A stretch of 64,000 nt of DNA, taken from the NCBI GenBank assembly GCA_016783965.1, contig JADHVO010000003.1, positions 1 through 64,000 of the forward strand, read 5' to 3'. Under the pieces are notes generated by a model. The model was given only the letters and a program-made list of their open reading frames with translations, had not been told where the DNA came from and searched no databases. The position numbers were made by a program, and so were the translations under genes. The number at the start of each line of letters is the position of its first letter. Positions within the stretch are counted from its first letter, which is position 1. The DNA comes from Alphaproteobacteria bacterium. Its GTDB lineage: Bacteria > Pseudomonadota > Alphaproteobacteria > Micropepsales > Micropepsaceae. Below, piece by piece: positions 33,796 through 64,000 of the stretch.

Positions 33796-33869
33796 TGGGG
33801 GATCGTCTAACGGTAGGACCCCAGACTCTGACTCTGGTTGTCTAGGTTCGAATCCTAGTCCCCCAGCCA
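33796..33869 (+). tRNA. tRNA-Gln(CTG), attachment target of the right element
   Basis: Full cloverleaf: acceptor TGGGGGA/TCCCCCA with discriminator G and encoded CCA at 33867-33869, D-arm with AACGGTAG, anticodon stem CCAGA/TCTGG around loop CTCTGAC with CTG at 33828-33830, and a T-arm with GGTTCGAATCC. The integrase gene starts 165 bases downstream on the same strand, as is usual at a tRNA 3'-end target. Confidence 0.95.
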
Positions 33870-44500: not shown

Positions 44501-45254
44501 GAAAGCGGCGCGTAGCAGGCGCCAAATCCAAATTGTCTACGAGATAGATACGACGCGCACTGCCCCCCAGTTGGTCGCGAACCCAGCCCGCCCATTGCAA
44601 GAAGTTGGGATCATTGCCCGAGAACCCAATCAGACACAGTTCATTTTCGATGAACACCTGGCGCGCGAAATTGACAAAAGCGGCGTGCTTGGCCGGATAG
44701 GTGCGGTAGTCCTCTTCGGCGAAAATGAGCTGGCCGCCATGCCCCAGTGTTCCGTGCAACTTCACGATTCGCGGTGACCGCGCCCTGGGCAGATCTGACT
44801 CGGACCGCACGACTTCGTAAGATTGGCTCGACGCGCGATCTGCTGTGCGTTCCAGCAATGTGTCCCAATTGGTGGTGAGCACATCGGCCCAGGGCAATTC
44901 CATCAATTCGCCATGCAATACGCCGGGCTGCCAAGCCGCATCGGGAAACCGCTTGAGGATGAAATCATCCAATGCCGCCTGGCCCAAATAGCTGCGATAC
45001 TCTTCAGCCACACGAAGCGCATTTGCCGGTGCCTTGGTGGTGGTGTCACCGCGATATAGCTGCGCGGCCATGGCATCGATGAGCTCCGGCCACAATGGCG
45101 GCCTCGGCGTATCTGGCGCCGCGCACTCGGCATATTTGCTGAATCCGGCACCCACCAGAACCGCCGCTCCACGGGCGGTACCGTTTCGCCATAGTGCCCG
45201 GGCAAGCTGCTGTAAGAGCGGAAAGTCCGGAAGATCTGTAAGGCTGTCACTCAT
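41595..45254 (-). CDS. SIR2-domain defence protein (DSR-like NADase)
   Basis: 1219 aa. N-terminal SIR2 domain (residues about 20-290): GAGFS at 35-39, TTNWD with N129, and KLHG with H167, the residues that hydrolyse NAD in defence-associated sirtuins, then GFSGNDPNFLQW. The remaining 900 residues are helical with no named domain, as in DSR1/DSR2, where the C-terminal part senses a phage protein and activates NAD depletion. Starts 58 bases after the AbiEii gene. Whether its sensor recognises tail-tube or other phage proteins is unknown; overall similarity to DSR1/DSR2 outside SIR2 is not evident by eye. Confidence 0.78.
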   Translation of the reverse strand: MSDSLTDLPDFPLLQQLARALWRNGTARGAAVLVGAGFSKYAECAAPDTPRPPLWPELIDAMAAQLYRGDTTTKAPANALRVAEEYRSYLGQAALDDFILKRFPDAAWQPGVLHGELMELPWADVLTTNWDTLLERTADRASSQSYEVVRSESDLPRARSPRIVKLHGTLGHGGQLIFAEEDYRTYPAKHAAFVNFARQVFIENELCLIGFSGNDPNFLQWAGWVRDQLGGSARRIYLVDNLDLAPATRRFLELHNIAPIDLAPAVREVSEPKRYAAAAALFFRALRDLKPPPLHEWRTQPLSAHPMGSAGLEVHEQVHKNDDLAADLLNKTVDVWQADRQTYPGWLVCPRRFRQQLKFAVDENWLLRKTVLEKLSPPRRVQVLRELLWRRRTAFVPLDETLQTLLADAASSASPDIDGATRCEMAIALMRAARIGEDDEALAKWHDAILATADASTEHKLEASYQLCLRARDRFEPQTIKALLPQLESDEPIWWLRRAALLSEIGEFKLANKLISDAAQNLERRQRLDRSSLSIRSQRGWAKWLSRVIDRDYHFNIPDPADMAEFEQASIDPAEELEAIDAAAHSIVSKRLEESVEAIPMFEPGHYRESPPRETGTTEGAFAAFYELDQLIETVGLPLRLNSVSIAAGAATNVVRAAFDGSFFWYVWLIRALHSHFDNPFRRYFSRIAVAQMSEPAWSLLLTAVSSAVDYWSDALKSADQDPERDRGNAIDELRLQIMVLSRLTPRMRADVGASLFRRAVVLAREPALRHYWLTEAIGELLRFSAEAVPISARGALAWDALDFPLASEIGVPERFWPSTITMFWPADPNRPAADAKWDHRIADLIAAANSEAREEAVLRLAYLVTRRALTNEEAAAFGRALWSEVDTGNPALPARMRLLPNIIMKIPAPESVDVASRLRARYYEAGLAPVVTAPAPLDTLAISERQNYVLALQVAAVSGLPLTAAEAQKLFAEATSWTPWKSARQDPFNAMFVQSYTDGMRVRLGDVLGYAIVPALPRTDLTETTAQTLLDFIERTKSWHAIAGLARLGAAGICTDDIVAVIRRGIAASNFEHVAGACGAIQRWSELTSETQAIPPLLIERVISILEVGQKDSVHPLLDAMRRLLRAGVLQDRDKARLLQILEDLRLSTRYADIDLESRKAVSASLVRVECVKLVRQLKAMGLDHGTITDWLRDARQDPLPEVRFAADDGNDDPDMNG

Positions 45255-45312: not shown

Positions 45313-46170
45313 TCACCCATCTTCGAACCCGTATTTTTTGAGCAGCTCAGGCGTCGTCGCCCAAGCTTTCCCCGGTATCTTGCCAATCACCGTCTCGAAG
45401 ACCCGCGCAAATGCACGTCGACCTGCCACATCGTCGAAACGTGCCCGTTCGTCGGCTGCCAGAAGCGGTTGAACGTCCGCCAAAAATCCGCGGCGCTCCA
45501 ATTTCTCGAACATGCGCTTTTCGGCTTCCCATCGCGGAATGGGCTTCTGCTTGACGTATTCGCCGAACATATCGACGGTTCGCTGCACATCGAGCTTTGG
45601 AAAAACGTCGAGCGCATGCGCAAGGTCGACCAGATCGCGTCCCTTGTTGCGTTGGAGTAAAGCCCGGAGCTTCGTTGATAGGACTTCCTCCTTCGAGAAG
45701 GTCGGAATATCGGCTGAGCCGGAGAACCATGGATTGTCGACTTTGAATGGCAGCGTCTGAGGAGCGTCAAACGGCGCAATCTCGACTTCATTGGTTTCGA
45801 TTTTCAAACGGATCGTGGATGAGCCGTCCTCCGCCGCGACCGTGTATCGGAGGGCCGGCGCGACCCGACTACGGAAATACTCGGGCTCGCCGAGCCACGA
45901 ATTCAGCAAATCGTGGACACGGTCCCATATGGGCTTCGATGGCCCGTCTTTGGTGCGCGTGAGATCGATGTCTTCGGAGTAGCGCAGCGGTTTTGGGAAA
46001 TGCAGCTTGTTGAGCGCGGTGCCGCCGCGGAAGCGCAACTCGTCACGCAAGAGCGGATCGCCAAAAAGCTCGACGAGCGCGCGCGCAATAATTAAGTCTT
46101 GCTCCACCTGCCGCGGTTCTGCCCAAGGTGCGACCTTCGACCAGGCGACGATGTTCTGCGTGGGAATCAT
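45313..46170 (-). CDS. abiEii: AbiEii-family nucleotidyltransferase toxin
   Basis: 285 aa. Nucleotidyltransferase motif RFRGGTALNKLHF followed by RYSEDIDLTRT, with a helical C-terminal domain. AbiEii toxins act by nucleotide transfer and cause growth arrest or abortive infection. Starts ATGA-overlapped with the antitoxin gene. Common on mobile elements. Confidence 0.9.
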   Translation of the reverse strand: MIPTQNIVAWSKVAPWAEPRQVEQDLIIARALVELFGDPLLRDELRFRGGTALNKLHFPKPLRYSEDIDLTRTKDGPSKPIWDRVHDLLNSWLGEPEYFRSRVAPALRYTVAAEDGSSTIRLKIETNEVEIAPFDAPQTLPFKVDNPWFSGSADIPTFSKEEVLSTKLRALLQRNKGRDLVDLAHALDVFPKLDVQRTVDMFGEYVKQKPIPRWEAEKRMFEKLERRGFLADVQPLLAADERARFDDVAGRRAFARVFETVIGKIPGKAWATTPELLKKYGFEDG

Positions 46171-47018
46171 TCGTCCGTCTCTGGCTGGCGCAGGACGTTT
46201 ACGCGCCAGCGCTCATTGCGTTCGATCGGTGTCACCGACGTCCCGGCTCCGCGCTTCGACGGTTCAAGCGCCACCCACGGCAAAGCTTTTGCTGTGGTCA
46301 GGCGATTGTGCAGCGCCTGCGCCCGCTCGGCATGTCCCAGGCGGTCGAGCAGATATCCCAGCCGTTGCGCACAAGCGCGATCAAAGTGCGCTGCCAGGAT
46401 TGCGAGCTTTTCGCCGTCGATGTTTGCGCCGAGATCAGCGATAGCCGTAGCGACGGCATCGATGCCGCCTGCGACATGAATATAGCGAAGCAGGTCGAAC
46501 GCCGTTAACTCGGGCGACGACACCTTCATGGTGCCGGTATCGGTCTTGCGCTCAACAACGCCGTCCCGCACAGACCGCGCGTCCTTACGGAAGTGAAAGG
46601 TGATCCACGAACGTCCCGCCCGGATCTTCGGCAATTGTCGATCCGTGATGACCTGAAATTCCATGACGGCATGATGCGTGGCGCCATGCAGCTCCGCAGC
46701 CTTGAGCAGGCCCACATAGTAGAACCTCCGCTCTTGGCGCATCAGGGCATCGATATACCAGGACGGCGGCGGCGCTTCCCACGAAAGGAATTGGGGCGGG
46801 ACGGTCACATAGAAGCCTTGGCGCGGATTGAAGAGCAGATGCCGCTTTTGCAGCCGCGCCGCCGCCTTCAAAAATCCGGCCTCCGTGATTCCGAGCGCCG
46901 CGATCGCCTCGTTGCGTGTGAACGCGACCCGGCCCTCCGATTGGAGAGTCGTCAGATACGCGGCGAGGCTGGAACGGGGGCTCTGCACCATATGAAAAAA
47001 TAGCCCAATAGTGTCCAT
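46167..47018 (-). CDS. abiEi: AbiEi-family antitoxin and autorepressor
   Basis: 283 aa. N-terminal winged-helix (SLAAYLTTLQSEGRVAFTRNEAIAALGITEAGFLKAAARLQKRH) and a C-terminal domain that counters AbiEii without direct binding (type IV). The ATG at 47018 lies inside a 24-bp repeat; an alternative start is M10 at 46991. Repeats upstream fit negative autoregulation. Confidence 0.88.
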   Translation of the reverse strand: MDTIGLFFHMVQSPRSSLAAYLTTLQSEGRVAFTRNEAIAALGITEAGFLKAAARLQKRHLLFNPRQGFYVTVPPQFLSWEAPPPSWYIDALMRQERRFYYVGLLKAAELHGATHHAVMEFQVITDRQLPKIRAGRSWITFHFRKDARSVRDGVVERKTDTGTMKVSSPELTAFDLLRYIHVAGGIDAVATAIADLGANIDGEKLAILAAHFDRACAQRLGYLLDRLGHAERAQALHNRLTTAKALPWVALEPSKRGAGTSVTPIERNERWRVNVLRQPETDE

Positions 47019-47326: not shown

Positions 47327-49399
47327 ATGACAAAGTCAAAGCCCAAGCTCGTGCTGAGCAACACGCGGCTCGTTCCCTTCAACAAGCTCGTTCTGTCCCA
47401 GGCCAACGTCCGCCGCGTGAGCAACGGCGTCTCGATCGAAGATCTTGCCGACGACATCGCTCATCGCGGGCTTTTGCACAATCTCAACGTCCGGCCAGTG
47501 CTGGATGACGCCGGCGCGGAAACCGATATGTTCGAGGTCCCTGCTGGCGGACGGCGCTATCGCGCGCTGGAGATTCTCGTCAAGCAGAAGCGCTTGCTCA
47601 AGACGGCCGAAATTCCCTGTAACGTCAAATCGGCGGATGATCCGATCTCGGCGGAAGAGGATTCGCTGGCGGAGAACACCTTCCGCGAAGCGCTGCATCC
47701 GCTCGACGAATTCCGTGCAATCCAGGAGCTTTCGTCCAAAGGCATGGGCGACGACACCATTGCGGCACGACTGAAGATCACCCCGGCCGTGGTCAAGCAG
47801 CGCAAGCGCCTCGCCAGCGTTTCCGAAAAGCTGCTCGCGATCTATGGCGCCGACGGCATGACGCTCGAACAGCTCATCGCGTTCGCTGTCACCGACGACC
47901 ACGCCCGACAGGAGCATGTCTGGGATTGCATCGCCGATCAGATCTACGATGCCGATCCCTACACCATCCGCGCCATGCTGACCGAGGATACCGTGGAAGC
48001 GTCCGACCGGCGCGCACGTTTCGTCGGCATCGAAGCCTATGAAGCGGCAGGCGGTATCGTGATGCGCGATCTGTTCGACACTGAGGACGGCGGTTGGTTA
48101 CAGGATCCGGGCTTGCTCGACCGTCTCGTGACCGAAAAGCTCAAGGCTGTAGCAGCAGATATCGCGGCCGAAGGCTGGAAGTGGATCAATGTCGCGGTGA
48201 GCTTCCCCTACGGGCATGACACCGGCATGCGCCGCCTCGCCGGCACGCCGTCAGATTTGAGCGAGGAAGAGTACGCGCGTCGCCAAGCCCTTCGTGGCGA
48301 ACACGAGCAAATCGAGGGGCAATATGCCGAGGCCGAAGAGCTTCCCGATGACGTCGACCAACGCCTCGGGGCGATCGAGGCAGAGTTGGAAGCCTTCGAG
48401 AACAGGCCGCTTCTCTACCTGTCGGAAGACAAATCTCGCGCGGGGGTCTTTATCAGCCTCGCCAACGGTGGATCGCTCAGGATTGAGCGCGGCCTTGTCC
48501 GCCGCGAAGACGAAACACCAGAGACGCCGGATCAGAACGAGAAGGATGATACCAACGGTGACGCAGATACCACGGCCGAGCCGGCGACGCAGAGCACGGT
48601 TATCACGCTTGGCAACGGTGAGGATGACGAAGCCGAGGAGGAGAATGTTGTAAGACCTCTGCCTGACCGGCTTGTGACCGAACTCACGGCCCACCGCACG
48701 CTGGCGCTGCAGGATGCAGTCGCAAGCCATCCGCACATCGCGATGACCGCTCTCCTGCACAAACTCTGCCTAGATTGCTTCTATCACACCAGTTACGGCG
48801 CGTGTCTGGAAGCGTCGGTGCGCCACGTCTATCTGCCGATTCAGTCGCCGGATCTGAAAGACAGCCCATCGGCCGTCGCAATCGCCGAACGCCAAGAACG
48901 CTGGAAGGCGCAGATGCCCGACAGCGGCGAGTTGCTGTGGGATTGTATCGCCGGCCTTGACGATGAGACCCGCGCGGCGCTGCTAGCGCATTGCGTGTCG
49001 CTGGGTGTCACCGCGCTATACGAACGCGCCGACCGTTCCGGCGGATCGGGTCCGTCGCGCGGCACCATCGACCGGCGCATCGGGCAAGCCGATCGACTCG
49101 CCGATGCCGTCGCGCTCGACATGGTGACCGCAGGATGGAAGCCCACGGTCGAGAACTATCTCGGTCGGGTGACCAAACCCCGGATCCTCGAGGCGGTTCG
49201 CGAGGCCAAAGGCGAAGCGTCCGCCCAGCTGATCGATCATCTCAAGAAAGGCGAGATGGCGAAAGAAGCCGAACGGCTGCTGAACGGTACCGGCTGGCTG
49301 CCCGAACCGCTGCGCTCGTTCGATCTCACGTCGGAAGCGCAAGAACCGGACGCGTTACCGGCCTTCCTCTCGGAAGCACCGGCAGAGGCCGCGGAATAG
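47327..49399 (+). CDS. ParB/RepB-like nuclease-domain protein
   Basis: 690 aa. ParB N-terminal domain (FNKLVLSQANVRR, PAGGRRYRALEIL, AENTFREALHPLDEFRAI) with an HTH (DDTIAARLKITPAVVKQRKRLA). A long helical and acidic C-terminal part follows, with DETPETPDQNEKDDTNGDAD as a linker. ICE and plasmid relatives of this length are not canonical partition proteins. GGAG precedes the ATG at 47327. First gene of the backbone after the defence cargo. Confidence 0.82.
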   Translation: MTKSKPKLVLSNTRLVPFNKLVLSQANVRRVSNGVSIEDLADDIAHRGLLHNLNVRPVLDDAGAETDMFEVPAGGRRYRALEILVKQKRLLKTAEIPCNVKSADDPISAEEDSLAENTFREALHPLDEFRAIQELSSKGMGDDTIAARLKITPAVVKQRKRLASVSEKLLAIYGADGMTLEQLIAFAVTDDHARQEHVWDCIADQIYDADPYTIRAMLTEDTVEASDRRARFVGIEAYEAAGGIVMRDLFDTEDGGWLQDPGLLDRLVTEKLKAVAADIAAEGWKWINVAVSFPYGHDTGMRRLAGTPSDLSEEEYARRQALRGEHEQIEGQYAEAEELPDDVDQRLGAIEAELEAFENRPLLYLSEDKSRAGVFISLANGGSLRIERGLVRREDETPETPDQNEKDDTNGDADTTAEPATQSTVITLGNGEDDEAEEENVVRPLPDRLVTELTAHRTLALQDAVASHPHIAMTALLHKLCLDCFYHTSYGACLEASVRHVYLPIQSPDLKDSPSAVAIAERQERWKAQMPDSGELLWDCIAGLDDETRAALLAHCVSLGVTALYERADRSGGSGPSRGTIDRRIGQADRLADAVALDMVTAGWKPTVENYLGRVTKPRILEAVREAKGEASAQLIDHLKKGEMAKEAERLLNGTGWLPEPLRSFDLTSEAQEPDALPAFLSEAPAEAAE

Positions 49400-50222: not shown

Positions 50223-53200
50223 ATGAACTCGATGATTTCTCCGGCTGCGCTCGCGGCCGCTACCTCTTTCTCCCTTTACGCCCGCGCCGCCGAACCCCTT
50301 CTCGCCGCCTCTGCGCGCGGCGAAGCGATTTCCACCGAGACGCTGCGAACCGCCATGGTATCGGCGTTCGGCGGCACCGACGCCGAAGGCGCGTGGGACT
50401 GGAAGACCGCTTACGACGTCTGCGAGATCGTGCAGGTCCAGTTCCTGCACAAATTCGGGGGCGCCATCCGCGCGCGTTCCGCCTCTCCCGCCGCCGCGCT
50501 CGCCATGCACGCGCGCATCGCGTCGCTCTTTCCCTCCCACACACGGCGTTCCGAAGAGAGCCAGGCGCTCCAGCAGTTTTCGACACCGATGCCGCTGGCG
50601 TTCGTGGCGGCTGCCGCCGCCGCGATGACGCCAGCCGATGTCGTGCTGGAGCCATCCGCCGGCACGGGGTTGCTGGCGATACACGCCGAATTGGCTGGCG
50701 CGCACCTCGCGCTCAACGAACTCGCCGACAACCGTGCCGCAATCCTGTGCGGACTGTTTCCCGAAGCCCCGATTTCGCAACATGACGCCGCGCACATCCA
50801 TGACTTTCTCGATCCGGCAGTCGCGCCCAGTGTCGTGCTGATGAACCCGCCATTCTCGGCCGCGGCCCATGTCGAGACCAAAGTCACCGACGCCGCGATG
50901 CGGCACATCGCATCCGCGCTCGCGCGCCTTGGTGATGGCGGACGCCTCGTCGCCATCACGGGCGCCAGCCTCGCGCCGGAAAGCCTCGCCTGGCGCGACG
51001 CCTTCACGCGCTTGCAGGAGAGCAGCCGCGTGGTTTTCTCCGCAGCCATCGACGGCCGTGTCTATGCCAAGCATGGCACAACCACCGACACACGCATCAC
51101 GGTTATCGACAAGCGCCCTGCGGAAGATGCGGATCATTTCCCGCCATCGCGCGGCATGTCGCCCAATACCGCCACGCTACTTAACTGGATCGCAGAGCTG
51201 CCGCCTCGTCAGAGCATTGCCAACGCGCGCGCAGTTTCATCCATCGCGCCGCGTGCCGTCGCGCGACGTTCTGCGGCGCGTGCCGCGCCCGCGCAACCGG
51301 CAACGACCATCGGCAGCGTTGAACTGGCCTACGAGATCGTCGATCAAGCTCCTATCGATCGCGGACATCTCAGCGATGCGATCTACGAGACCTATGCGCT
51401 GCAGTCGATTTCCATACCGGGCGCGCTGCCGCATCCCACCAAGCTCGTGCAATCGGCGGCCATGGCCTCGGTCGCACCGCCCAAACCCTCCTATCGTCCG
51501 CTCCTGCCGCCACACGTACTTCGCGATGGCCTGCTCTCCGACGCTCAACTCGAAAGCATCATCTATGCGGGCGACGCGCACAAAAACTGTCTCGCGGGCG
51601 CGTGGACGGTCGACGACACCTACGATGTTGTTTCGGCCGCGCCTGACGATGCGGAGGCCTCAGTTCGGTTTCGCCGGGGATGGATGCTGGGCGATGGCAC
51701 CGGCGCGGGCAAAGGCCGGCAGGTCGCCGGCGTTCTGCTCGACAATTGGTGCCAGGGCCGCACCCGCGCGGTATGGATCTCCAAGTCGGACAAGCTGATC
51801 GAGGATGCGCAGCGCGACTGGTCGGCGCTCGGCCAGGAGCGTTTGCTGGTGACACCGCTGTCGCGTTTCCGGCAAGGCGGCACGATCCGGCTGGCGCAAG
51901 GCATCCTATTCACCACCTATGCCACGCTGCGCTCTGACGCCAAGGAGGATAAGGCTTCCCGCGTCCAGCAGATCGTGGACTGGTTGGGCCGCGACTTCGA
52001 CGGCGTGATCGTGTTCGACGAATCCCATGCCATGGCCAATGCCGCAGGCGCGACCTCCGAGCGCGGCGACAGCGCGCCATCACAGCAGGGCCGTGCCGGT
52101 CTGCGCCTGCAACACGCGCTGCCCAACGCCCGTATCCTCTATGTCTCTGCCACCGGCGCCACCACGGTTCACAATCTGGCCTATGCCCAACGTCTCGGCC
52201 TTTGGGGCGGCACGGATTTTCCGTTCGCGACGCGCGCGGAATTTGTCGAAGCCATCGAAGCCGGCGGCGTCGCGGCCATGGAAGTGCTGGCGCGCGACCT
52301 GAAAGCGCTCGGTCTCTACGCCGCCCGCTCGCTCTCTTACGAGGGCTTCGAGTACGAACTGGTCGAGCACCAGCTCACACCCGAGCAGACCCGCATCTAT
52401 GACGCCTATGCGGGCGCCTTCCAAGTCATTCACAACAATCTCGATGCTGCGCTGCAGGCATCCAATGTCACCGGCGTGTCAGGCACGCTCAACGGCCAAG
52501 CCAAGTCCGCCGCGCGCTCGGCCTTCGAGTCCGCCAAGCAGCGCTTCTTCAATCACCTGATCACGGCGATGAAGACGCCGACCCTGATCAAATCCGTGGA
52601 GCGCGATCTGGAACAAGGCCATGCGGCCGTGATCCAGATTGTATCGACCGGCGAAGCGTTGATGGAACGGCGTCTCGCCGACATCCCGACCGAGGAATGG
52701 AACGACGTCTCGGTCGACATCACGCCGCGCGAATACGTTCTCGACTATCTGAGCCATTCCTTTCCGACGCAGCTCTATGAGCCCTTCACCGACGACGAGG
52801 GCAACCTCGCGTCCCGGCCTGTATTCGACAAGGATGGCAATCCTGTCCAGTCGCGCGAAGCCGTCCGTCGCCGCGACCGCATGATCGAACATCTGGCAGC
52901 GCTCGCACCTGTTCAAGGTGCGCTCGATCAGATCGTCCAGCGCTTCGGTACCGATCGCGTGGCCGAAGTGACCGGGCGGAGCCGCCGCATCGTGCGCAAA
53001 GGAGACCGGCTCTGCGTCGAGAACCGCGCCGGCTCGGCCAACCTCGCCGAAGCGCAAGCCTTCATGGATGATGTGAAGCCGATCCTCGTCTTCTCGGACG
53101 CTGGCGGCACCGGGCGCTCCTATCACGCCGATCTTGGCGCAAAGAACCGTCGCCTGCGCATACATTATCTATTGGAGGCGGGGTGGAAGGCCGACACCGC

Positions 53201-54518
53201 CATCCAAGGGCTGGGCCGCTCCAATCGCACCAACCAGGCACAACCGCCGCTGTTCCGGCCCATCGCCACCAATGTGAAGGCGGAGAAACGGTTCCTGTCC
53301 ACCATCGCAAGGCGATTGGACACGCTCGGCGCCATCACCAAGGGCCAGCGGCAAACGGGCGGCCAAGGGCTTTTCCGCGCTGACGACAATCTGGAATCGC
53401 CTTATGCGCGCGCGGCGCTGCGCCAGCTCTACCTGCTCATCTATAATGGAAAGGTCGAAGCCTGTTCGCTCCAGACTTTTGAAGCAGCGACGGGCCTCCA
53501 TCTGACGGACAATGATGGCAGTCTGCGCGAAGAGCTGCCGCCCATCACGACCTTCCTCAACCGGCTGCTAGCGCTGACCATCGACATGCAGAACCACCTC
53601 TTCGAGGTGTTCGAAAGCCTGCTGCGCGCCAAGATCGAAGGCGCGATCTCCAGCGGCATCTACGATCGTGGGCTTGAGACCATCGCCGCCGAGAGTCTGA
53701 TCGTCACTAACCGGCGCACGCTCTACACCCATGCCGTGAGCAACGCCGAAGCGAAAGTCTTCACGATCAAGCGCCGCGACCGCAATCAGCCTCTGACATT
53801 GGACGAAGCGCTGGAGTACTCCCGCGAGCCGCGGGCGCTCTTGATGATCAACAGCCAGTCGGGCCGCGCCGCGGTGCAAGTCACTGCATCGAGCCTGATG
53901 CTGGACGACGGCTCGGTCGAACGCCGTGTCCGGCTGCTGCGGCCGATGGAACGCCCCGCCATCGCGATCGAGGCGCTCGATCACACCCATTGGGAAGCCA
54001 CCGATCGCGAGACCTTCGTCCAAGCCTGGAATGCCGAACTCGCCGAGGTGCCGCCTTACACGGAAAGCGACATGCACATCGTTACCGGCCTGCTTCTGCC
54101 GATCTGGAAGCGCCTGCCCAATGAGCATTGCCGTGTCTATCGGCTGCAGACCGACGACGGCGAACGCATCATCGGCCGTCCTGTCTCGCTGGCCTGGGTA
54201 GCCAGCGCCACCAATACCGGCATGGCCGCGATTTCGCCAAACGAGGCGTGGACCGCCGTGCTCGACGGGCGCTCAACCCTAAAATTGCAGGATGGATTGC
54301 AGCTGCGCCGCGTGAAGGTGATGGGTTCGCATCGCGTCGAACTCATGGACTTCAGCGACGGCATGGTCGACCGGCTGAAGACGCTCGGCCTCATGTCCGA
54401 AATCATCGCCTGGAAGCTGCGGCTTTTCGTGCCAACAGGACCTAACGGCGCCGAGGTGTTGGCTGCTCTATTGGCGCGCCATCCGCTCACCGGTATCGAA
54501 AATCGGAGCGCGGTATGA
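50223..54518 (+). CDS. N6-methyltransferase-like domain fused to a strawberry-notch helicase
   Basis: 1431 aa. N-terminal Rossmann methyltransferase: LEPSAGTG at 142-149 and NPPF at 208-211, the N6-adenine motif. Then a strawberry-notch NTPase/helicase: GDGTGAGKGRQ at 490-500, FDESHAM at 598-604, and the helicase C domain with GGTGRSYHADLG and GLGRSNRTNQAQ. Frequent on ICEs and large plasmids, where it may remodel or modify incoming DNA. Ends in an ATGA overlap with the Toprim gene. Confidence 0.85.
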   Translation: MNSMISPAALAAATSFSLYARAAEPLLAASARGEAISTETLRTAMVSAFGGTDAEGAWDWKTAYDVCEIVQVQFLHKFGGAIRARSASPAAALAMHARIASLFPSHTRRSEESQALQQFSTPMPLAFVAAAAAAMTPADVVLEPSAGTGLLAIHAELAGAHLALNELADNRAAILCGLFPEAPISQHDAAHIHDFLDPAVAPSVVLMNPPFSAAAHVETKVTDAAMRHIASALARLGDGGRLVAITGASLAPESLAWRDAFTRLQESSRVVFSAAIDGRVYAKHGTTTDTRITVIDKRPAEDADHFPPSRGMSPNTATLLNWIAELPPRQSIANARAVSSIAPRAVARRSAARAAPAQPATTIGSVELAYEIVDQAPIDRGHLSDAIYETYALQSISIPGALPHPTKLVQSAAMASVAPPKPSYRPLLPPHVLRDGLLSDAQLESIIYAGDAHKNCLAGAWTVDDTYDVVSAAPDDAEASVRFRRGWMLGDGTGAGKGRQVAGVLLDNWCQGRTRAVWISKSDKLIEDAQRDWSALGQERLLVTPLSRFRQGGTIRLAQGILFTTYATLRSDAKEDKASRVQQIVDWLGRDFDGVIVFDESHAMANAAGATSERGDSAPSQQGRAGLRLQHALPNARILYVSATGATTVHNLAYAQRLGLWGGTDFPFATRAEFVEAIEAGGVAAMEVLARDLKALGLYAARSLSYEGFEYELVEHQLTPEQTRIYDAYAGAFQVIHNNLDAALQASNVTGVSGTLNGQAKSAARSAFESAKQRFFNHLITAMKTPTLIKSVERDLEQGHAAVIQIVSTGEALMERRLADIPTEEWNDVSVDITPREYVLDYLSHSFPTQLYEPFTDDEGNLASRPVFDKDGNPVQSREAVRRRDRMIEHLAALAPVQGALDQIVQRFGTDRVAEVTGRSRRIVRKGDRLCVENRAGSANLAEAQAFMDDVKPILVFSDAGGTGRSYHADLGAKNRRLRIHYLLEAGWKADTAIQGLGRSNRTNQAQPPLFRPIATNVKAEKRFLSTIARRLDTLGAITKGQRQTGGQGLFRADDNLESPYARAALRQLYLLIYNGKVEACSLQTFEAATGLHLTDNDGSLREELPPITTFLNRLLALTIDMQNHLFEVFESLLRAKIEGAISSGIYDRGLETIAAESLIVTNRRTLYTHAVSNAEAKVFTIKRRDRNQPLTLDEALEYSREPRALLMINSQSGRAAVQVTASSLMLDDGSVERRVRLLRPMERPAIAIEALDHTHWEATDRETFVQAWNAELAEVPPYTESDMHIVTGLLLPIWKRLPNEHCRVYRLQTDDGERIIGRPVSLAWVASATNTGMAAISPNEAWTAVLDGRSTLKLQDGLQLRRVKVMGSHRVELMDFSDGMVDRLKTLGLMSEIIAWKLRLFVPTGPNGAEVLAALLARHPLTGIENRSAV

Positions 54519-55576
54519 ATGCGCACAGTCCGGCCGGCAGATTGGCGCAACAGCTCGCGCAAAATGCCGAAGCGGTGTGCCGGCACTATCTATCCCGCGG
54601 CCACAGGCAGGGCCGCTATTGGCTTGTCGGTGACATCGACAACAACCCCGGCCGCAGCCTTTATGTCCGACTCAAGGGCGCAGATAGCGGCAAAGGTGCG
54701 GCCGGCAAGTGGACCGATGCTGCCACCGGCGAGCATGGCGATCTTCTCGATCTGATCGCACGCACCCATCATCTCACACGCTTGCGCGATGTGCTGGACG
54801 ACGCCCGCGCCTTTTTGCGCCTACCGCACCCCGCGCTGTCGGTGTGGTCGCGGCAGAACTCTCCAGCACCGGAAGGCTCGCCGGATTCGGCACGGCGGCT
54901 GTTTGCCATGTCGAGACCGCTCGCGGGATCGCTCGCTGAGACTTATCTGCGCGCGCGTGCGATCACGCAACTGGCCCATCTGCCAGCCTTACGATTTCAT
55001 CCGCGATGTTACTACCGGGCAGACGTTGAGGCCGAGACACAGACCTGGCCAGCACTCATCGCGGCCGTCACCGATCTCTCCGGCACGATCACCGGCGTGC
55101 ATCGCACTTGGCTCGATCGGGCCGGCGTCGACAAAGCGCCGCTCGAAACGCCACGCCGCGCGATGGGCCACCTTCTGGGTAATGCCGTGCGGTTCGGGAG
55201 TGCCGACGATGTTCTCGCAGCAGGCGAAGGCATCGAGACGATGCTGTCACTGCGCGACGCGTTGCCGGGTCTCGCGATGGCAGCAGGCCTTTCGGCCAAT
55301 CACCTCGCCGCCATGCTGCTCCCATCCACCTTGCGTATTCTCTACGTCGTCCGCGACGCTGATCCGGCTGGCGATCGCGCGACGGCCACGCTGTCACAGC
55401 GCGCGCAGAGCCAAGGCATCGAGGCACGCATGTTGTCGCCGCGCTTGGACGACTTCAACGACGATCTGCGCAAGATCGGCCTTACACATCTGCGCCAGCA
55501 TCTTCGCACGCAGCTCGCGCCCGAGCATGCCGAACGCTTTCTGAATCGTTGCGCATCGAGCATGGCTGTCCCCTGA
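54515..55576 (+). CDS. Toprim-domain primase-like protein (DUF7146)
   Basis: 353 aa. N-terminal zinc-less DNA-binding part (RGHRQGRYWLVGDIDNNPGRS), then a Toprim domain with the acidic motifs EGIETMLSLRDALP and YVVRDADPAGDRA. Such proteins are primase-like factors on conjugative elements. Start overlaps the helicase stop. Confidence 0.82.
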   Translation: MNAHSPAGRLAQQLAQNAEAVCRHYLSRGHRQGRYWLVGDIDNNPGRSLYVRLKGADSGKGAAGKWTDAATGEHGDLLDLIARTHHLTRLRDVLDDARAFLRLPHPALSVWSRQNSPAPEGSPDSARRLFAMSRPLAGSLAETYLRARAITQLAHLPALRFHPRCYYRADVEAETQTWPALIAAVTDLSGTITGVHRTWLDRAGVDKAPLETPRRAMGHLLGNAVRFGSADDVLAAGEGIETMLSLRDALPGLAMAAGLSANHLAAMLLPSTLRILYVVRDADPAGDRATATLSQRAQSQGIEARMLSPRLDDFNDDLRKIGLTHLRQHLRTQLAPEHAERFLNRCASSMAVP

Positions 55577-55587
55577 ACATGCACGGC

Positions 55588-55810
55588 CCGCGCACTCGGC
55601 CTTCTGAAAGGGCGATCCGGCCAGAAGCGCGATAGGCCTGCAACAGTCGGGCCCGGCTATTTTCCGCCGGCGCTGACGCGCCTTTGCATCGCCAAACAAA
55701 ATAGCCGGGCCCTCCTGTCCTTCGGCCGCCGGCCGCGACTGCGGCCCGCGGTTCCGGCCCATCGCGCTTCTGGCTGAGGGATCGCCGAAGGCCGCGCTTC
55801 GGTAGCGCGG
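55588..55810. repeat. Large nested inverted repeat before the DUF2493 gene
   Basis: Five collinear arms: CCGCGC/GCGCGG (55588-593, 805-810), CGGCCTTC/GAAGGCCG (597-604, 787-794), GGCGATC/GATCGCC (611-617, 780-786), GCCAGAAGCGCGAT/ATCGCGCTTCTGGC (620-633, 761-774) and GGGCCCGGCTATTTT/AAAATAGCCGGGCCC (649-663, 698-712). Fifty bp pair perfectly. Inside are GGCGC-TGAC-GCGCC and, on the 3' side, GGCCGC-GACT-GCGGCC. No coding sense. Candidate structured RNA or DNA. Confidence 0.75.
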
Positions 55811-55831
55811 TCCCTTTGTCAGGAGACAGCC

Positions 55832-56755
55832 ATGACACACGATTACGATTCAGAACCCGATCACAGCTCGTCGGCGACGGACGAAGCCGTCACGCAGCTT
55901 CAGCTCCATGGTTACAGGCCCTTCTACGATGAGCCGGACATGCGGCCTTCGCCCGATAGCGATGAAATCGCCGGAACGATTTCCGACATGTTCGACGCGC
56001 TTGCCAGCACACTGACGGATACCCGTCTCGAGCCGGACCTCGCAGACTTGCTCTGGTCTATGGTGCACGCCTTCCATCGCGCCATCGATCGCGTGCAACG
56101 CAAGCTCGACGACAACGAAGACGCGCAGAAGCGCAGCCAGCGCGAGCAGGACGGCTCCGAAATCCGCTCGGTCGAACTGGAACGCCTCCTCGCCGAGGGC
56201 GAAGTGTTACTCGACCGCCGCGACAGCATCGAAGCCTTTCGCGATGCCGCGGCCGACCGTTACGAGCAGATCACCGGATCGGTCTGGCGTCCGCACACAG
56301 GCTCGATGGTCAACCGCCGCGCCATGACGGCGGCTGTCATCGATAGCCGCGATTTTCTCAACGCCAAACGCCGCAGCGAGACCGAAATCGTCTTTCCAGC
56401 GGGTGCTCGCATCGCTTTTACGGGTGGACCGGACTGCAACGAGCACGACCGCATCTGGACCGCGCTCGACAAGGTGCATGCCAAGCATGCCGACATGGTG
56501 CTCCTGCATGGTGGCACACCCACAGGTGCCGAGCGCATCGCTGCCCGCTGGGCCGATGCCCGCAAAGTTCCACAGATCGCCTTCCGGCCCGATTGGAACC
56601 GGCATCACAAGGCCGCGCCCTTCAGGCGCAACGATCAGCTGCTCGACGCCATGCCGATCGGTGTTGTCGCCTTTCCAGGTTCCGGCATCTCCGCGAACCT
56701 TTGCGACAAGGCCCGCAAGCTCGGCATACCAGTCTGGCGGGACGGCGGCGCGTGA
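55832..56755 (+). CDS. DUF2493 (SLOG-like) domain protein
   Basis: 307 aa. Helical N-terminal half, then DUF2493 near residues 190-300: IAFTGGPDCNEHDRIWTALDKVH, LLHGGTPTGAERIAARWA and VVAFPGSGISANLCDKARKLGIPVW. The family shares the Rossmann-like SLOG fold that binds nucleotide ligands. Standard in this ICE backbone. GGAG precedes ATG. Confidence 0.85.
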   Translation: MTHDYDSEPDHSSSATDEAVTQLQLHGYRPFYDEPDMRPSPDSDEIAGTISDMFDALASTLTDTRLEPDLADLLWSMVHAFHRAIDRVQRKLDDNEDAQKRSQREQDGSEIRSVELERLLAEGEVLLDRRDSIEAFRDAAADRYEQITGSVWRPHTGSMVNRRAMTAAVIDSRDFLNAKRRSETEIVFPAGARIAFTGGPDCNEHDRIWTALDKVHAKHADMVLLHGGTPTGAERIAARWADARKVPQIAFRPDWNRHHKAAPFRRNDQLLDAMPIGVVAFPGSGISANLCDKARKLGIPVWRDGGA

Positions 56756-57401: not shown

Positions 57402-57710
57402 ATCACGTTGGCGCTTGCAATCCGTCTTGACCACGTCGGCGCCACGCAGAGTGCAGCATGACGCGTGCTCGGCGAGCTACTTCCCATCTTCTCCGACTTG
57501 GACCAGGCACGGCCTCGCGCGACCGACATCGCGAATGTGGAAGCTGCGTGCACGATTGGGCGCACCGGTACGAGCCTTTCTTATTGCGCGCCAATGCTTC
57601 TCTTGCTTCGATCTTTCCGTTCGCGGTCTTGTCTGTGCCGCTGAACGCTCGCCATGAGTCTCCATGGGATGCTGTTTGGCACGCGAGTCCATGCCGCCTC
57701 TCTTGGCTTT
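57402..57710. other. Gene-free stretch before DUF736 leader
   Basis: No credible gene; only low-quality frames. The next 165 bases are the nested repeat listed separately. Confidence 0.45.
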
Positions 57711-57875
57711 GATCGGGCCAAAGACCGGCTGCGCCTCGATCGCCTAGACGCAAGGGGGCCGTCAGACTTTCTTCCCCTGGGCTAATGCCCATTCCTCGCG
57801 AGGCAAGAAAGTCTGCCGTCCTCCCTCAAGCCCGCAAGTGCGGGTGCGTCGTCGATCGCCTTCGGCCTTCCGATC
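57711..57875. repeat. Nested inverted repeat before the DUF736 gene
   Basis: Arms: GATCGG/CCGATC (57711-716, 870-875), CGATCG/CGATCG (737-742, 853-858), GACGCA/TGCGTC (747-752, 845-850), CAGACTTTCTT/AAGAAAGTCTG (763-773, 805-815). Apical hairpins GGGC-TAAT-GCCC and CCTCGCGAGG, and a 3'-side hairpin CCCGCA-AG-TGCGGG (831-844). The layout matches the element at 55588-55810, with different sequence. Confidence 0.7.
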
Positions 57876-57927
57876 GCCATCGAGGCCGCGATGGTCGCGG
57901 GCTCGAAACAGCAAACGGAGAACAGAC

Positions 57928-58254
57928 ATGGCTATCATCGGCACATTCAAGAAGGTCGCAAACGGGTTCGAAGGCGAGTTCGCAATGCTGGCGCTGCAGG
58001 CAAAAGGCGTTCGCATCGTCGCCGAGACCAATCGCAGCAACGAAGACGCTCCCAGCCATCGCATCTTTGTCGGCCGCGCGGAGATCGGCGCCGCCTGGAC
58101 CAAATCGTCGGAGAAGAACGAAGAATATCACTCGCTCAAGCTCGACGATCCGAGCTTCACCGCTCCGGTCTATGCCAACCTGGTCAAGGACAAGGACGGC
58201 GACACCTATAACGTGATCTGGTCCCGCCGGCCCGGCAAGCGCAACGGCAACTGA
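57928..58254 (+). CDS. DUF736 protein
   Basis: 108 aa: MAIIGTFKKVANGFEGEF, the family start, then FVGRAEIGAAWTKSSEKNEEY. Function unknown; highly conserved in alphaproteobacterial ICEs and plasmids. CGGAG ribosome site; preceded by the nested repeat and followed by a terminator. Confidence 0.9.
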   Translation: MAIIGTFKKVANGFEGEFAMLALQAKGVRIVAETNRSNEDAPSHRIFVGRAEIGAAWTKSSEKNEEYHSLKLDDPSFTAPVYANLVKDKDGDTYNVIWSRRPGKRNGN

Positions 58255-60419: not shown

Positions 60420-60977
60420 ATGTCACAGGCACAACATTCGCCCACACGGCAAACCGCCACATTGCGTGCGACCGGCGCTCAGCAGTTGAACGTCGATCCT
60501 GCCCACTCTGCTGGCGCTGGCCTCACGCAGATCGAGTTGATTTGGGACGAAGGCAAGGTCGAGCGCTGGATTCGGTTCGGTCGTCCCGTCGATGATCGCA
60601 TCATCGATCGTCAGCGCCGGATGCTCTCTTTTGCACCAGGCAGCATCTTCGCCTTCGTGCGTTGGCAGGCCAACGATTTCGGTACGGTGCTCTCACGCAT
60701 CGACATCTTGCGAGCGCTGGAGCCGCACGAAGCGACGACCAGCATCGGCTTCATGCGCCCCGGTGGAGAAATCCTCCTGCGCATGAGCACCTGGCCCAAG
60801 GTCCAGCGCGTGCTGCAGTTGATCGACGCCATCGAGCAGGCTGGCTTCGATCCGGCCGACATCTGCCCGGATCATTGGCGCCACGTCCACAACCGCTTGA
60901 GCGCCAACCAAGATCCGCGTGGCTACACGCTTGCGCGCCACGCCGTGTGGCTGGCGCGCAGGGCATTGTCGTCATGA
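60420..60977 (+). CDS. DUF2840 protein
   Basis: 185 aa: LIWDEGKVERWIRFGRPVDDRIIDRQRR, FAPGSIFAFVRWQANDFGTV, matching DUF2840 proteins next to traF in ICEs. Function unknown. Stop overlaps the traF start. Confidence 0.82.
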   Translation: MSQAQHSPTRQTATLRATGAQQLNVDPAHSAGAGLTQIELIWDEGKVERWIRFGRPVDDRIIDRQRRMLSFAPGSIFAFVRWQANDFGTVLSRIDILRALEPHEATTSIGFMRPGGEILLRMSTWPKVQRVLQLIDAIEQAGFDPADICPDHWRHVHNRLSANQDPRGYTLARHAVWLARRALSS

Positions 60978-61531
60978 ATCCCCGCGCGACGGTTCTTTCC
61001 TTCGCGGCCGTGGCTGTCGCGGCGCAGCTTGCGAGCGTGCCATTAGCCACGCCGTCACGGAGCAGCCCTGGCGCGGCAATACAACCGGTTATGCGCAAGC
61101 TCTTCCTTTGGAATGCGAGCGGCAGCGCCCCGCGTGGTCTCTATCTGTTACGTCCCGCAAAGCCCCTGCGCGGCGGCGAACTCGTCGCGGTGCTGCCGCC
61201 CGAGCCGCTCGCGCGCTTCGTGGCGCTGCGCGGATATCTGCCGCTTGGCACTCCGCTTCTGAAACACATCGCAGCACTGGGTGGGCAGACTGTCTGCCGC
61301 TTCGGTGACCGTGTAGCGGTCGATGACCACGACGCCGTGCTGGCGCGCGAACGCGATACAAGCGGTAGGCCCCTGCCGCGCTGGCAGGGGTGTCGCACGC
61401 TGCGCAACAGCCAGGTTTTTCTCCTGAACCCGGCCGTCCCCGACTCATTCGACGGCCGGTATTTCGGCGTGCTGTCCGCCGACACCGTCACCGCACGGGC
61501 TGAGCCCCTCTGGATCATTTCGGAGCACTGA
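60974..61531 (+). CDS. traF: TraF-type conjugative signal peptidase (S26)
   Basis: 185 aa. N-terminal membrane helix, catalytic serine in NASGSAPRGLY (Ser51) and lysine in LLKHIAAL (Lys97). Processes the mating pilin in conjugation systems. ATGA overlap with DUF2840. Confidence 0.88.
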   Translation: MNPRATVLSFAAVAVAAQLASVPLATPSRSSPGAAIQPVMRKLFLWNASGSAPRGLYLLRPAKPLRGGELVAVLPPEPLARFVALRGYLPLGTPLLKHIAALGGQTVCRFGDRVAVDDHDAVLARERDTSGRPLPRWQGCRTLRNSQVFLLNPAVPDSFDGRYFGVLSADTVTARAEPLWIISEH

Positions 61532-61533
61532 CC

Positions 61534-62349
61534 ATGCACGATCCCCGCATCCGCAATACCCGCCTAGTCCTCGCCACAGGTACCAGCTCTCTTTCCCTTC
61601 CGGCCTCTCTCCTGTCGCTGGCTTGTGCTCCTGTCCGTCGCTTGTGGTCTCTCCATGCGTCGGGTGCCTGCATGGCAATTGTGCTCGCTCTGCCAATCCA
61701 CTGCGGTATTGCCTCCGCGCATACGGCAGATACGGTTCCGGAAATTGTCACCGACCGCTACGGCTCTTTCATCGCCGAGGCGTCCCAGCGCTTTGGGCTT
61801 CCTGCATCCTGGTTGCGCGCCGTCATGCAGGTTGAGAGCGGCGGCAATCCAAAGGCCGTGTCGCCCAAGGGTGCGATGGGCCTTATGCAACTGATGCCGG
61901 ATACCTGGTCGACACTGCGGCTCCAATATCATCTGCGCGGCGATCCCCTCGACCCGCACGATAACGTCCTGGCCGGCGCCGCGTACCTGCGTGCACTCTT
62001 CGACCGCTTCGGCGCACCGGGATTTCTTGCCGCCTACAATGCAGGTCCGAAGAGGTTTCAAGACTATCTGGCTGGCCTCCAGCCATTGCACGACGAGACC
62101 AAGCGATACCTTTCGACATTGGCGCGGATGTTGCCAGACTTGCCGGTCAATGGTGCGACACTGACGGTGGCCACTGTCAGCGATTGGCGTAGCGCTGGGC
62201 TATTCGCCGAACACAGAACGGATTCGCGGCCATCCACGCCGACGCCTTCCAGTTCTCCACTTGAGAACACGTCGTCTGCACTGCACTTTGCGTTGGCGCC
62301 GCAATCGAACGGACTGTTCGTGCCGGTCCACATGACGGATCGACCGTGA
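61534..62349 (+). CDS. Lytic transglycosylase of the conjugation system
   Basis: 271 aa. SLT domain: MQVESGGNPKAVSPKGAMGLMQLMP with catalytic Glu101, then NVLAGAAYLRALFDRFG and AAYNAGP. Opens the cell wall for the transfer channel. A hydrophobic N-terminal stretch acts as signal; ATG at 61672 gives a shorter form beginning MAIVLALPIHCGIASAHTA. Confidence 0.88.
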   Translation: MHDPRIRNTRLVLATGTSSLSLPASLLSLACAPVRRLWSLHASGACMAIVLALPIHCGIASAHTADTVPEIVTDRYGSFIAEASQRFGLPASWLRAVMQVESGGNPKAVSPKGAMGLMQLMPDTWSTLRLQYHLRGDPLDPHDNVLAGAAYLRALFDRFGAPGFLAAYNAGPKRFQDYLAGLQPLHDETKRYLSTLARMLPDLPVNGATLTVATVSDWRSAGLFAEHRTDSRPSTPTPSSSPLENTSSALHFALAPQSNGLFVPVHMTDRP

Positions 62350-62598
62350 CTGCATTGGCCGCCATCAACACCAGCCGCCGCCACTCGACAGAGGGTTTGA
62401 TCGGGAGATCTATCCACCCAAACCACCGAACCAACGGAGGGCGAGATAAAAGCGTCCTTGGCGGTGCGTGGTTTGTCGTTGTCGTACAGAGGCTTACAGG
62501 CATCCCCAGACGAAGGTCGGCCAGCCGTCCGACACACAAGCAGCAGATAATCAACGACTTAGACGCCAGCCATCCATCCGAACGCACGCGTTTGCACG
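62350..62598 (+). other. Gap before relaxase, likely to hold oriT
   Basis: 249 bases without a gene. Relatives carry oriT directly upstream of rlxS. I see no convincing nick consensus, only short imperfect repeats (GTCGG/CCGAC near 62515). Position is the only support. Confidence 0.35.
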
Positions 62599-64000
62599 AT
62601 GTCTCGCCGGGATGACGACCTGCGCGTTCGGCCCGGCCGCATTCGCGACGGCAACAAGGGTGCACGCAAGTCAAAGAGCTATGTCGCGCAGGTCATGCGG
62701 GCCGCGAAGAAGGCAGGACATACCGGCGCGCATTTTGGTAGTGCCGGCCGCAGCGGAGGCCGCTCGACTTTCGGCCGCGGCGGCAAGGCCGCCCGCTCTC
62801 TCGGCCTAAAGTCGCCCTCGCGGCGTGTCGTAATTAAGGCCCGTGTGGTCCGGCACAAAGGCTCGAAGTTTCGCTCCGCACCACTCGCCAAGCACATCAG
62901 TTATCTGAAGCGCGAAGGCGTTACCCGCGAGGGCCAAGAGGCCCAGCTGTTCGACGCGCGGTCGGATGAAGCAGACGTCAAGGCATTTGCCGAACGCTGC
63001 GAAGATGACCGCCATCACTTCCGCTTCATCGTCTCGCCCGAGGACGCACCCGAGATGGCGGACCTCAAGACCTTTACCCGCAAGCTCGTGAAGGAGGCCG
63101 AGCGGGATCTCGGCACAAAGCTCGATTGGGTCGGAGTCGACCACTGGAACACGGATAATCCGCACATCCATGTCCTGGTGCGAGGCAAGCTCTCGACCGG
63201 CAAGGATCTCGTCATCAGCCGCGACTACATCAGCCGCGGTTTCCGGCTGCGGGCGGCCGAGCTCGTGGAATTGGAACTCGGTCCACGCACCGAACAAGAA
63301 ATCCAGGTCGCATTGGAGAAAGACGTCCAAGCCGACCGCTGGACAAGCTTCGACCGCAAACTCCAGGACGCCGCCGACGACAATGCCGGTGTTGTCAATC
63401 TCAGGCCGGTCGCATCCGAGGAAGAGCCCGAGTTGCGCCGCTTGTTGGTGGGGCGGGTGCAAAAGCTGGAACGCCTTGGCTTGGCCGCACAGGATGCTTC
63501 GGGACAGTGGACGCTGAAGCCGGGTCTGGAGCAGACACTCCGAGATCTCTCCATCCGCGGCGACATCATCAAGACCATGCATCGGGCGCTATCCGACACC
63601 GGTCGCGAACCTGACGTTTCCGGCTTTGCCCTGCACCTAGGCACGCCCTCAGAACCCATCGTTGGTCGGCTCGCGGCGCGCGGCCTGCATGACGAGTTGA
63701 ACGGCACTGCCTATGCGATCGTCGAGGGCATCGATGGCCGCTCGCATCATCTGAGGTTCTCCGATCTGGAGATGACGGGCGATGCGTCTCTCGGCACGGT
63801 CGTTGAGACGCGCGCCTATCAGGACGAGAAGGGTCGCACGCGTTTCGCGCTGGCTACACGCTGCGATCTATCGATCGAGGCGCAGATAACAGCAGCCGGT
63901 GCGACCTGGATCGATCGTCAGTTGCTGGCCGACACGCCGATCAGCCACGCCGGTTTCGGCGCCGAGGTTCGTGCGGCAATGAGCGAACGCCGAGACTATC
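62599..64000 (+). CDS. rlxS: DUF3363-type relaxase (RlxS-like), cut at right edge
   Basis: First 467 codons. Basic serine/glycine N-terminus, then the relaxase domain: HHFRFIVSPEDA (139-150), then VDHWNTDNPHIHVLVRG with H182, H189, H191 as the metal-binding histidines; the DUF3363-like part starts beyond. ATG at 62599. Nicks oriT and leads the strand into the recipient. The rest lies outside the window. Confidence 0.88.
   Translation, partial: MSRRDDDLRVRPGRIRDGNKGARKSKSYVAQVMRAAKKAGHTGAHFGSAGRSGGRSTFGRGGKAARSLGLKSPSRRVVIKARVVRHKGSKFRSAPLAKHISYLKREGVTREGQEAQLFDARSDEADVKAFAERCEDDRHHFRFIVSPEDAPEMADLKTFTRKLVKEAERDLGTKLDWVGVDHWNTDNPHIHVLVRGKLSTGKDLVISRDYISRGFRLRAAELVELELGPRTEQEIQVALEKDVQADRWTSFDRKLQDAADDNAGVVNLRPVASEEEPELRRLLVGRVQKLERLGLAAQDASGQWTLKPGLEQTLRDLSIRGDIIKTMHRALSDTGREPDVSGFALHLGTPSEPIVGRLAARGLHDELNGTAYAIVEGIDGRSHHLRFSDLEMTGDASLGTVVETRAYQDEKGRTRFALATRCDLSIEAQITAAGATWIDRQLLADTPISHAGFGAEVRAAMSERRDY

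Follow-up and report, generated by a model that had tools for sequence, protein, structure and literature searches.

A long branched hairpin (element 1) fills the 255 nt that separate a DUF7146-Toprim gene from a DUF2493/YAcAr (SLOG) gene. It is conserved through compensatory changes and belongs to a family, mainly alphaproteobacterial, that stands before certain mobile-element genes. Our preferred reading, which we consider probable though far from settled, is that the element is a Frpo-like promoter that would act on single-stranded DNA in the leading region of an ICE. The computed basis for this consists of the conserved structure, DNA-like changes in the stems, directed and repeated placement, and the geometry relative to the relaxase gene and the nick motif.

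The hairpin and its conservation

To judge by gene content, the surroundings of element 1 in the window (the whole stretch of DNA analysed, 64,000 nt) look like an ICE (Table 1), with HTH, RovC-type DNA-binding protein and DUF2840 genes in addition to those tabulated. The window also carries, as cargo, an AbiEi/AbiEii-type toxin-antitoxin pair (45313-47018, minus strand) and, near it, a 1219-aa protein with a SIR2-like domain (41595-45254, minus strand), a possible defence gene.

Table 1. Positions of the hairpin elements and neighbouring features in the window
Feature	Position	Strand	Basis or remark
tRNA	33796-33866
Integrase	34034-35227
ParB-like protein	47372..49399	(+)	ParB_N match under curated cut-off
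Strawberry-notch-type helicase with methyltransferase domain	50223..54518	(+)
DUF7146 + Toprim (primase-like) gene, directly before element 1	54515..55576	(+)
Hairpin element 1, full extent	55561..55834	(-), inferred transferred strand	Repeats, DNA fold, covariance model
Outer arm pair	55561-55576/55819-55834		16 nt, 94%; repeat search; missing from the original prediction
Arm pair	55597-55604/55787-55794		8 nt, 100%; repeat search
Arm pair	55611-55618/55779-55786		8 nt, 100%; repeat search
Arm pair	55620-55638/55756-55774		19 nt, 95%; repeat search
Arm pair	55643-55663/55698-55718		21 nt, 90%; repeat search
DUF2493 / YAcAr (YspA, cpYpsA-related SLOG) gene, behind element 1	55832..56755	(+)
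Hairpin element 2, diverged copy upstream of DUF736	57704..57888	(-) as drawn	Model match on + strand, 39 bits
DUF736 gene, behind element 2	57928..58254	(+)
TraF-type S26 signal peptidase	60974..61531	(+)
Lytic transglycosylase, position of msi107 in ICEMlSymR7A	61534..62349	(+)
Putative nick region of oriT	62440..62452	(-)	Reads CTTTTATCTCGCC; variant of MOBP motif, not exact
Relaxase with DUF3363 (RlxS/VirD2-like)	62599..64000	(+)	Runs past window end

The nested palindrome holds up and greatly exceeds what chance would give. The original prediction, which covered 55588-55810, described nested arms in the right order and of a quality not expected at random; a repeat search finds the arms where they had been placed, in correct nesting order, and none of 200 shuffles was as stable in either the RNA fold (-142.4 kcal/mol, z -8.1) or the DNA fold (-85.6, z -8.5) of that span. 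That the structure ends near the ribosome site of DUF2493 also holds, as the outer arms carry it as far as the start codon. With these arms included, the DNA fold of the minus strand (55556-55836) reaches z -10.8, and in a G+C regression over 220-nt windows across 33-64 kb, element 1 ranks first in stability for its G+C. The covariance-model core spans 55597-55794. Where a single inverted repeat had been described, this one stands but is not alone: element 2 lies 40 nt before DUF736, with a minus-strand DNA fold (57690-57905) of z -7.6 and a weak value (-1.9) in the G+C regression.

Among 598 stretches, at least 576 DUF2493 relatives came from genome contigs, and the best 80 of these, 63-89% identical in DUF2493, were retained. 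A covariance model (R1) built from 31 sequences matches before DUF2493 in all 80, with the hairpin at the same place, and also matches the window and a second locus of its own genome (contig C2). A simple search shows a Toprim gene as the near upstream neighbour in 73 of the 80 loci, across a gap of 228-372 nt. In the alignment of 31 sequences, 38 of 70 pairs have changed on both sides; none of 500 shuffles matches this (shuffled mean 22.0), and when partners are slid out of register, the number of double-changed pairs is 11-22. The covariation score is 0.261 versus 0.096. Altogether 90.8% of cells are paired, a percentage that favours the structure because the structure was derived from the same alignment, so that the double changes are the stronger evidence. 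Covariance across homologous ICEs, which the original prediction had proposed as the check, thus finds the structure conserved, with compensatory changes. Conserved bases are also present in the loops and junctions of the element. An Rfam search gave only sub-threshold matches on either strand.

The own genome (4.29 Mb) contains 4 copies at E <= 1, two before DUF2493 and two before DUF736. This weighs against the suggestion, made at the outset, of a MITE- or RIME-like element, i.e., a mobile palindrome that is there by chance. The element is indeed palindromic and repeated within one mobile element, but the copies are few, every one precedes DUF2493 or DUF736, and the hairpin keeps its place in the best 80 of at least 576 loci despite their divergence. 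Copy number and placement rule out this reading in the main, and we give it next to no credence. Contig C2 of this genome (approximately 156800-167100) holds a second element of the same kind, with two hairpins of its own, a relaxase and an exact nick motif, TATCCTGC.

Copies before gene starts

R1 matches before DUF736 in 38 of the best 80 of at least 576 DUF2493 loci, many of which end early. Sampling by structure alone found copies in 20 genomes out of 289 from the class and in 28 out of 299 from the phylum, 2 of those 28 being outside the class. Counted by hand, with mirror-strand rows and one repeat excluded, this gives 79 distinct copies outside the own genome, all of which were inspected. 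A gene start on the same strand lies 25-82 nt downstream in 75 of the 79 (kinship uncorrected), and the median distances from element end to start codon are about 34-41 nt. Behind these 75 copies are 39 DUF736 genes, 31 DUF2493 genes, 4 small ORFs (two of an 'MSWDEY' family, L105 and L114, and two others, L202 and L219) and 1 ardC; for L103, L105 and L114, the reference protein was taken from the locus itself. The remaining four copies have no intact gene just behind them: in L204 and L217, no clear ORF follows the hairpin, while L224 and L227, both from genome G315, appear broken by insertion (by eye, one has an unidentified ORF, the other a cut-off DUF736-like start and then a break). Locus ends account for two further matches (L023, L036). 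Of the 26 copies on 15 plasmids, 24 stand before DUF2493 or DUF736, and the other two are followed by genes of 57 and 61 aa. The DUF736 copies in the traF-transglycosylase operons of L128, L144 and L147 have no element match. A copy in G455 (228996, plus strand) has the opposite orientation and precedes its own DUF736, which suggests a joint move of element and gene.

Two tiny protein families occur behind the hairpin, one of 76-81 aa with 'MSWDEY' (L105 from 1771, L114 from 1736) and one of 57 aa with 'MPRPTS..LPAHAR' (L202; L148, 17883-18056). The tiny proteins of L105, L114 and L148 have no Pfam match, and we regard both families as candidate early-entry proteins. In L223 (334-1239; G105, contig C23), the hairpin stands 39 nt before an ardC gene (ArdcN, E 3e-40, plus zincin-like peptidase). 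A region of G436 (contig C203, 120-187 kb) has five copies on one strand within 66 kb, a number that no sampled genome exceeds and that G455, with five matches, equals. The DUF2493, DUF736 and ArdC proteins are not covered by any PADLOC model, and a search of viral contigs found no DUF2493 relative.

Probable folded DNA and the inferred direction of entry

The stems of a sense RNA tolerate G-U pairs but not A-C pairs. We counted both in the stems with a pipeline common to all sets, at three filters (every predicted pair, those at least 50% Watson-Crick and those at least 80% Watson-Crick; kinship uncorrected). For the element, GU:AC is 44:58, 28:57 and 16:32, compared with 283:24, 171:24 and 42:12 for an RNase P control from the same class (29 of 30 loci; 54 of 58 genomes matched). 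Copies aligned with the covariance model give 50:59 (43 sequences, mainly of the DUF2493 type) and 55:53 (29 lower-scoring copies). The G-U excess expected of a structured sense RNA is therefore absent from the element at every filter, which points to folded DNA over sense RNA. Eight copies of F-plasmid Frpo give 76:17, 16:17 and 7:6; as a positive control Frpo is small and only partial, since its excess is gone when filtered but present over all predicted pairs, where it is nearer to RNase P than the element is.

These counts bear on the possibility of a cis-acting RNA leader, in which the DUF2493 or DUF736 mRNA would fold, hide its ribosome site and switch translation in the manner of a riboswitch or attenuator. 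The short distance to the start codon and the strong RNA fold would suit such a leader, as would the 25 nt around the ribosome site, whose pairing with upstream sequence is stronger than the shuffled average in 61 of 66 relatives (mean z -1.6; z below -2 in 20 of 66). But the stems behave opposite to RNase P, no Rfam family is matched, and the fixed direction relative to the relaxase, described below, would be left unexplained; we therefore consider a leader unlikely, and the structured RNA offered in the original prediction is disfavoured for the sense strand. When the minus strand is counted, G-U moderately outnumbers A-C (123:33, 66:32 and 32:15 at the three filters). This is expected if the minus strand folds, but a structured antisense RNA from that strand across each gene start would give the same. 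The ratio is weaker than for RNase P (66:32 versus 171:24 at the 50% filter), neither strand has an above-threshold Rfam match, and the direction relative to the relaxase would again lack an explanation, making an antisense RNA highly improbable. Similar G-U and A-C counts would also suit a requirement for duplex DNA, i.e., a double-stranded binding site or cruciform for a regulator encoded by the element. Approximately 200 nt of branched, covarying pairs are, however, far beyond a dimer site, and the conserved loop and junction bases suggest that the folded form is read, so that we hold a duplex site to be very unlikely.

In all 22 elements where a relaxase gene is seen within 25 kb, it lies downstream of the hairpin, and in 21 it is on the same strand (kinship uncorrected; window, L125, L128, L143, L144, L146-L148, L188-L191, G077, G082, G093, G095-G097, G138, G168, G275 and G522). 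The relaxase gene of the sole strand exception, G077, is interrupted. No relaxase is present within the fetched stretches of L129, L145, L149, L150 and L192; elsewhere the nearest relaxase on the same contig is 29 kb (G465) and 80 kb (G189) behind the element, and that of G548 is 183 kb away.

According to PMC3772185, MOBP relaxases cut (C/T)ATCCTG(C/T) and remain on the 5' end. We searched the regions upstream of the relaxase genes in 19 distinct elements for (C/T)ATC(C/T)TG(C/T), one base looser than published. The motif is found opposite to the gene strand in 12 of the 19 (L125, L128, L144, L146, L188-L191 and L197-L200); 3 carry it on the gene strand (L147, L188 and L195), L188 having both. 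Five regions have it on neither strand (the window, with a variant only, L143, L193, L194 and L196), so with L147 and L195, where it is on the gene strand only, the expected-strand motif is missing in 7 of the 19. At the aligned place in the window and in L147, TATC(C/T)TGC is replaced by the variant TATCTCGC. In L148, which has a Ti-type traA, the minus strand of the traC-traA gap carries ATAAGTGCGCCCC, which we take to be the RSF1010/Ti-type nick sequence. In ICEMlSymR7A, a mobile element of the same kind, oriT is reported downstream of rdfS-traF-msi107 and adjoining rlxS (PMC11963761), a place upstream of the relaxase gene and not that of the hairpin. By analogy, the oriT of the window would lie near its relaxase gene. 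The palindrome itself is probably not an oriT, and 62350-62598 is the better candidate.

With the relaxase downstream and the nick motif mostly opposite the genes, it is most likely the minus strand that is transferred, its entry running leftward; for the window itself, the nicking of the minus strand is extrapolated from the motif of its relatives. This would put the DUF2493 and DUF736 genes into the leading region, with the entering strand probably serving as their template, as in F.

A proposed promoter on the entering strand

In our proposal, a nick near 62440 would make the 5' end, and the minus strand would enter the recipient travelling leftward. On this incoming strand, 55561-55834 would fold into the long branched hairpin, whose stem could give RNA polymerase a double-stranded place to land and begin copying the minus strand toward DUF2493; element 2 would play the same part for DUF736. 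Both genes could thereby be expressed ahead of second-strand synthesis. Polymerase binding, transcription from single-stranded DNA and early expression are what we infer from the computed features, and a role of the DUF2493 and DUF736 proteins in establishment or anti-defence would follow by the same reasoning. ArdC is a known anti-restriction protein, and the copy before its gene fits an early role, although it is one of 79. The original prediction had listed a single-strand DNA signal used in transfer among three options; this is now the best supported of them, by the DNA-like wobble pattern, the fixed direction and the leading-region position.

The F plasmid shows the same layout, and there, according to PMC9849209, deleting Frpo1 or Frpo2 abolishes early recipient expression of the tested genes behind them. 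As in the Frpo/ssi promoters of F, ColIb-P9 and other enterobacterial plasmids, the element is a long branched hairpin of the leading region, with genes read toward oriT, a relaxase downstream (22 of 22), stable predicted minus-strand DNA hairpins at both elements of the window and more than one copy per mobile element. An A+T tract, judged by eye, close to the tip of the hairpin and well-paired positions without G-U excess are further likenesses. The resemblance is one of geometry, and membership of the Frpo family by sequence is not supported, R1 giving no match at E <= 1 on F 48-70 kb. The element differs from Frpo in having no recognisable -35/-10 boxes (best score in the stem 6.68 of 12 versus 6.41 in shuffles, by a naive consensus scan that also misses Frpo, at 7.12 versus 7.35), and Frpo has a G-U excess over all predicted pairs that the element lacks. 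The genes behind it are mostly DUF2493 and DUF736 rather than ssb, psiB and ardA, and it occurs mainly in Alphaproteobacteria, with a putative promoter role, whereas Frpo/ssi are enterobacterial. With Rfam structured RNAs, the element shares a covarying, multi-branched fold, but it belongs to no family above threshold and its wobble pattern is unlike that of RNase P.

The sso of ICEBs1 is reportedly a structured single-stranded DNA site on a conjugative element, and single-strand origins (sso/ssi) resemble the element in this respect. The element might be a single-strand initiation site that primes the complementary strand, perhaps by way of the neighbouring DUF7146-Toprim protein. A primase-like gene lies directly upstream of the DUF2493 copy, the hairpins are on the inferred entering strand, and Frpo itself reportedly makes primers as well (title of Masai and Arai, 1997). 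Unlike such origins, the copies keep to gene starts, and a short distance to the start codons of several gene families is not needed for priming; moreover, among 20 genomes with the element, taken mostly from the lower-scoring of the 46 found, 11 have no DUF7146 match. We regard a priming site as distinctly unlikely.

Returning to the promoter reading, the foot of the hairpin, which by the predicted pairing reaches the ribosome site, suggests that read-through mRNA may be kept untranslated, and 61 of the 66 relatives tend in that direction, 20 of them below z -2. Tentatively, and with considerable doubt, the element could be a two-way entry switch, i.e., a promoter on single-stranded DNA during entry and a translational lock once double-stranded and integrated. 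Transcripts beginning inside the hairpin would not contain the left arm, and their ribosome site would stay accessible, whereas read-through mRNA from the toprim operon would have both outer arms (Table 1), fold and bury the ribosome site. DUF2493 and DUF736 would then be made during entry only.

In the open-licence literature on DUF2493, DUF736, Frpo or single-stranded DNA promoters in Alphaproteobacteria and ICEs, and Rhizobium leading regions, we found no description of the element. In PMC11541004, single-strand promoters were sought on chosen islands by BLAST with five Frpo/ssi sequences and a -35/-10 search, and its main text does not contain 'Alphaproteobacteria', 'Rhizob' or 'DUF'. PMC8627217 reports that every Mesorhizobium element in its comparison has DUF736 genes, often duplicated.

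The carriers are mainly alphaproteobacterial ICEs and plasmids, including Mesorhizobium and Bradyrhizobium plasmids. If the promoter reading is correct, a family unrelated in sequence would make expression from entering single-stranded DNA a general strategy, and its structure would provide a handle for finding more such promoters. DUF2493, DUF736 and some tiny proteins would be marked as early establishment or anti-defence factors. The entry switch, if true, would represent a new class of single-stranded DNA promoter outside Enterobacteria and would cast both DUFs as factors of establishment or anti-defence, which the copy before ardC would fit.
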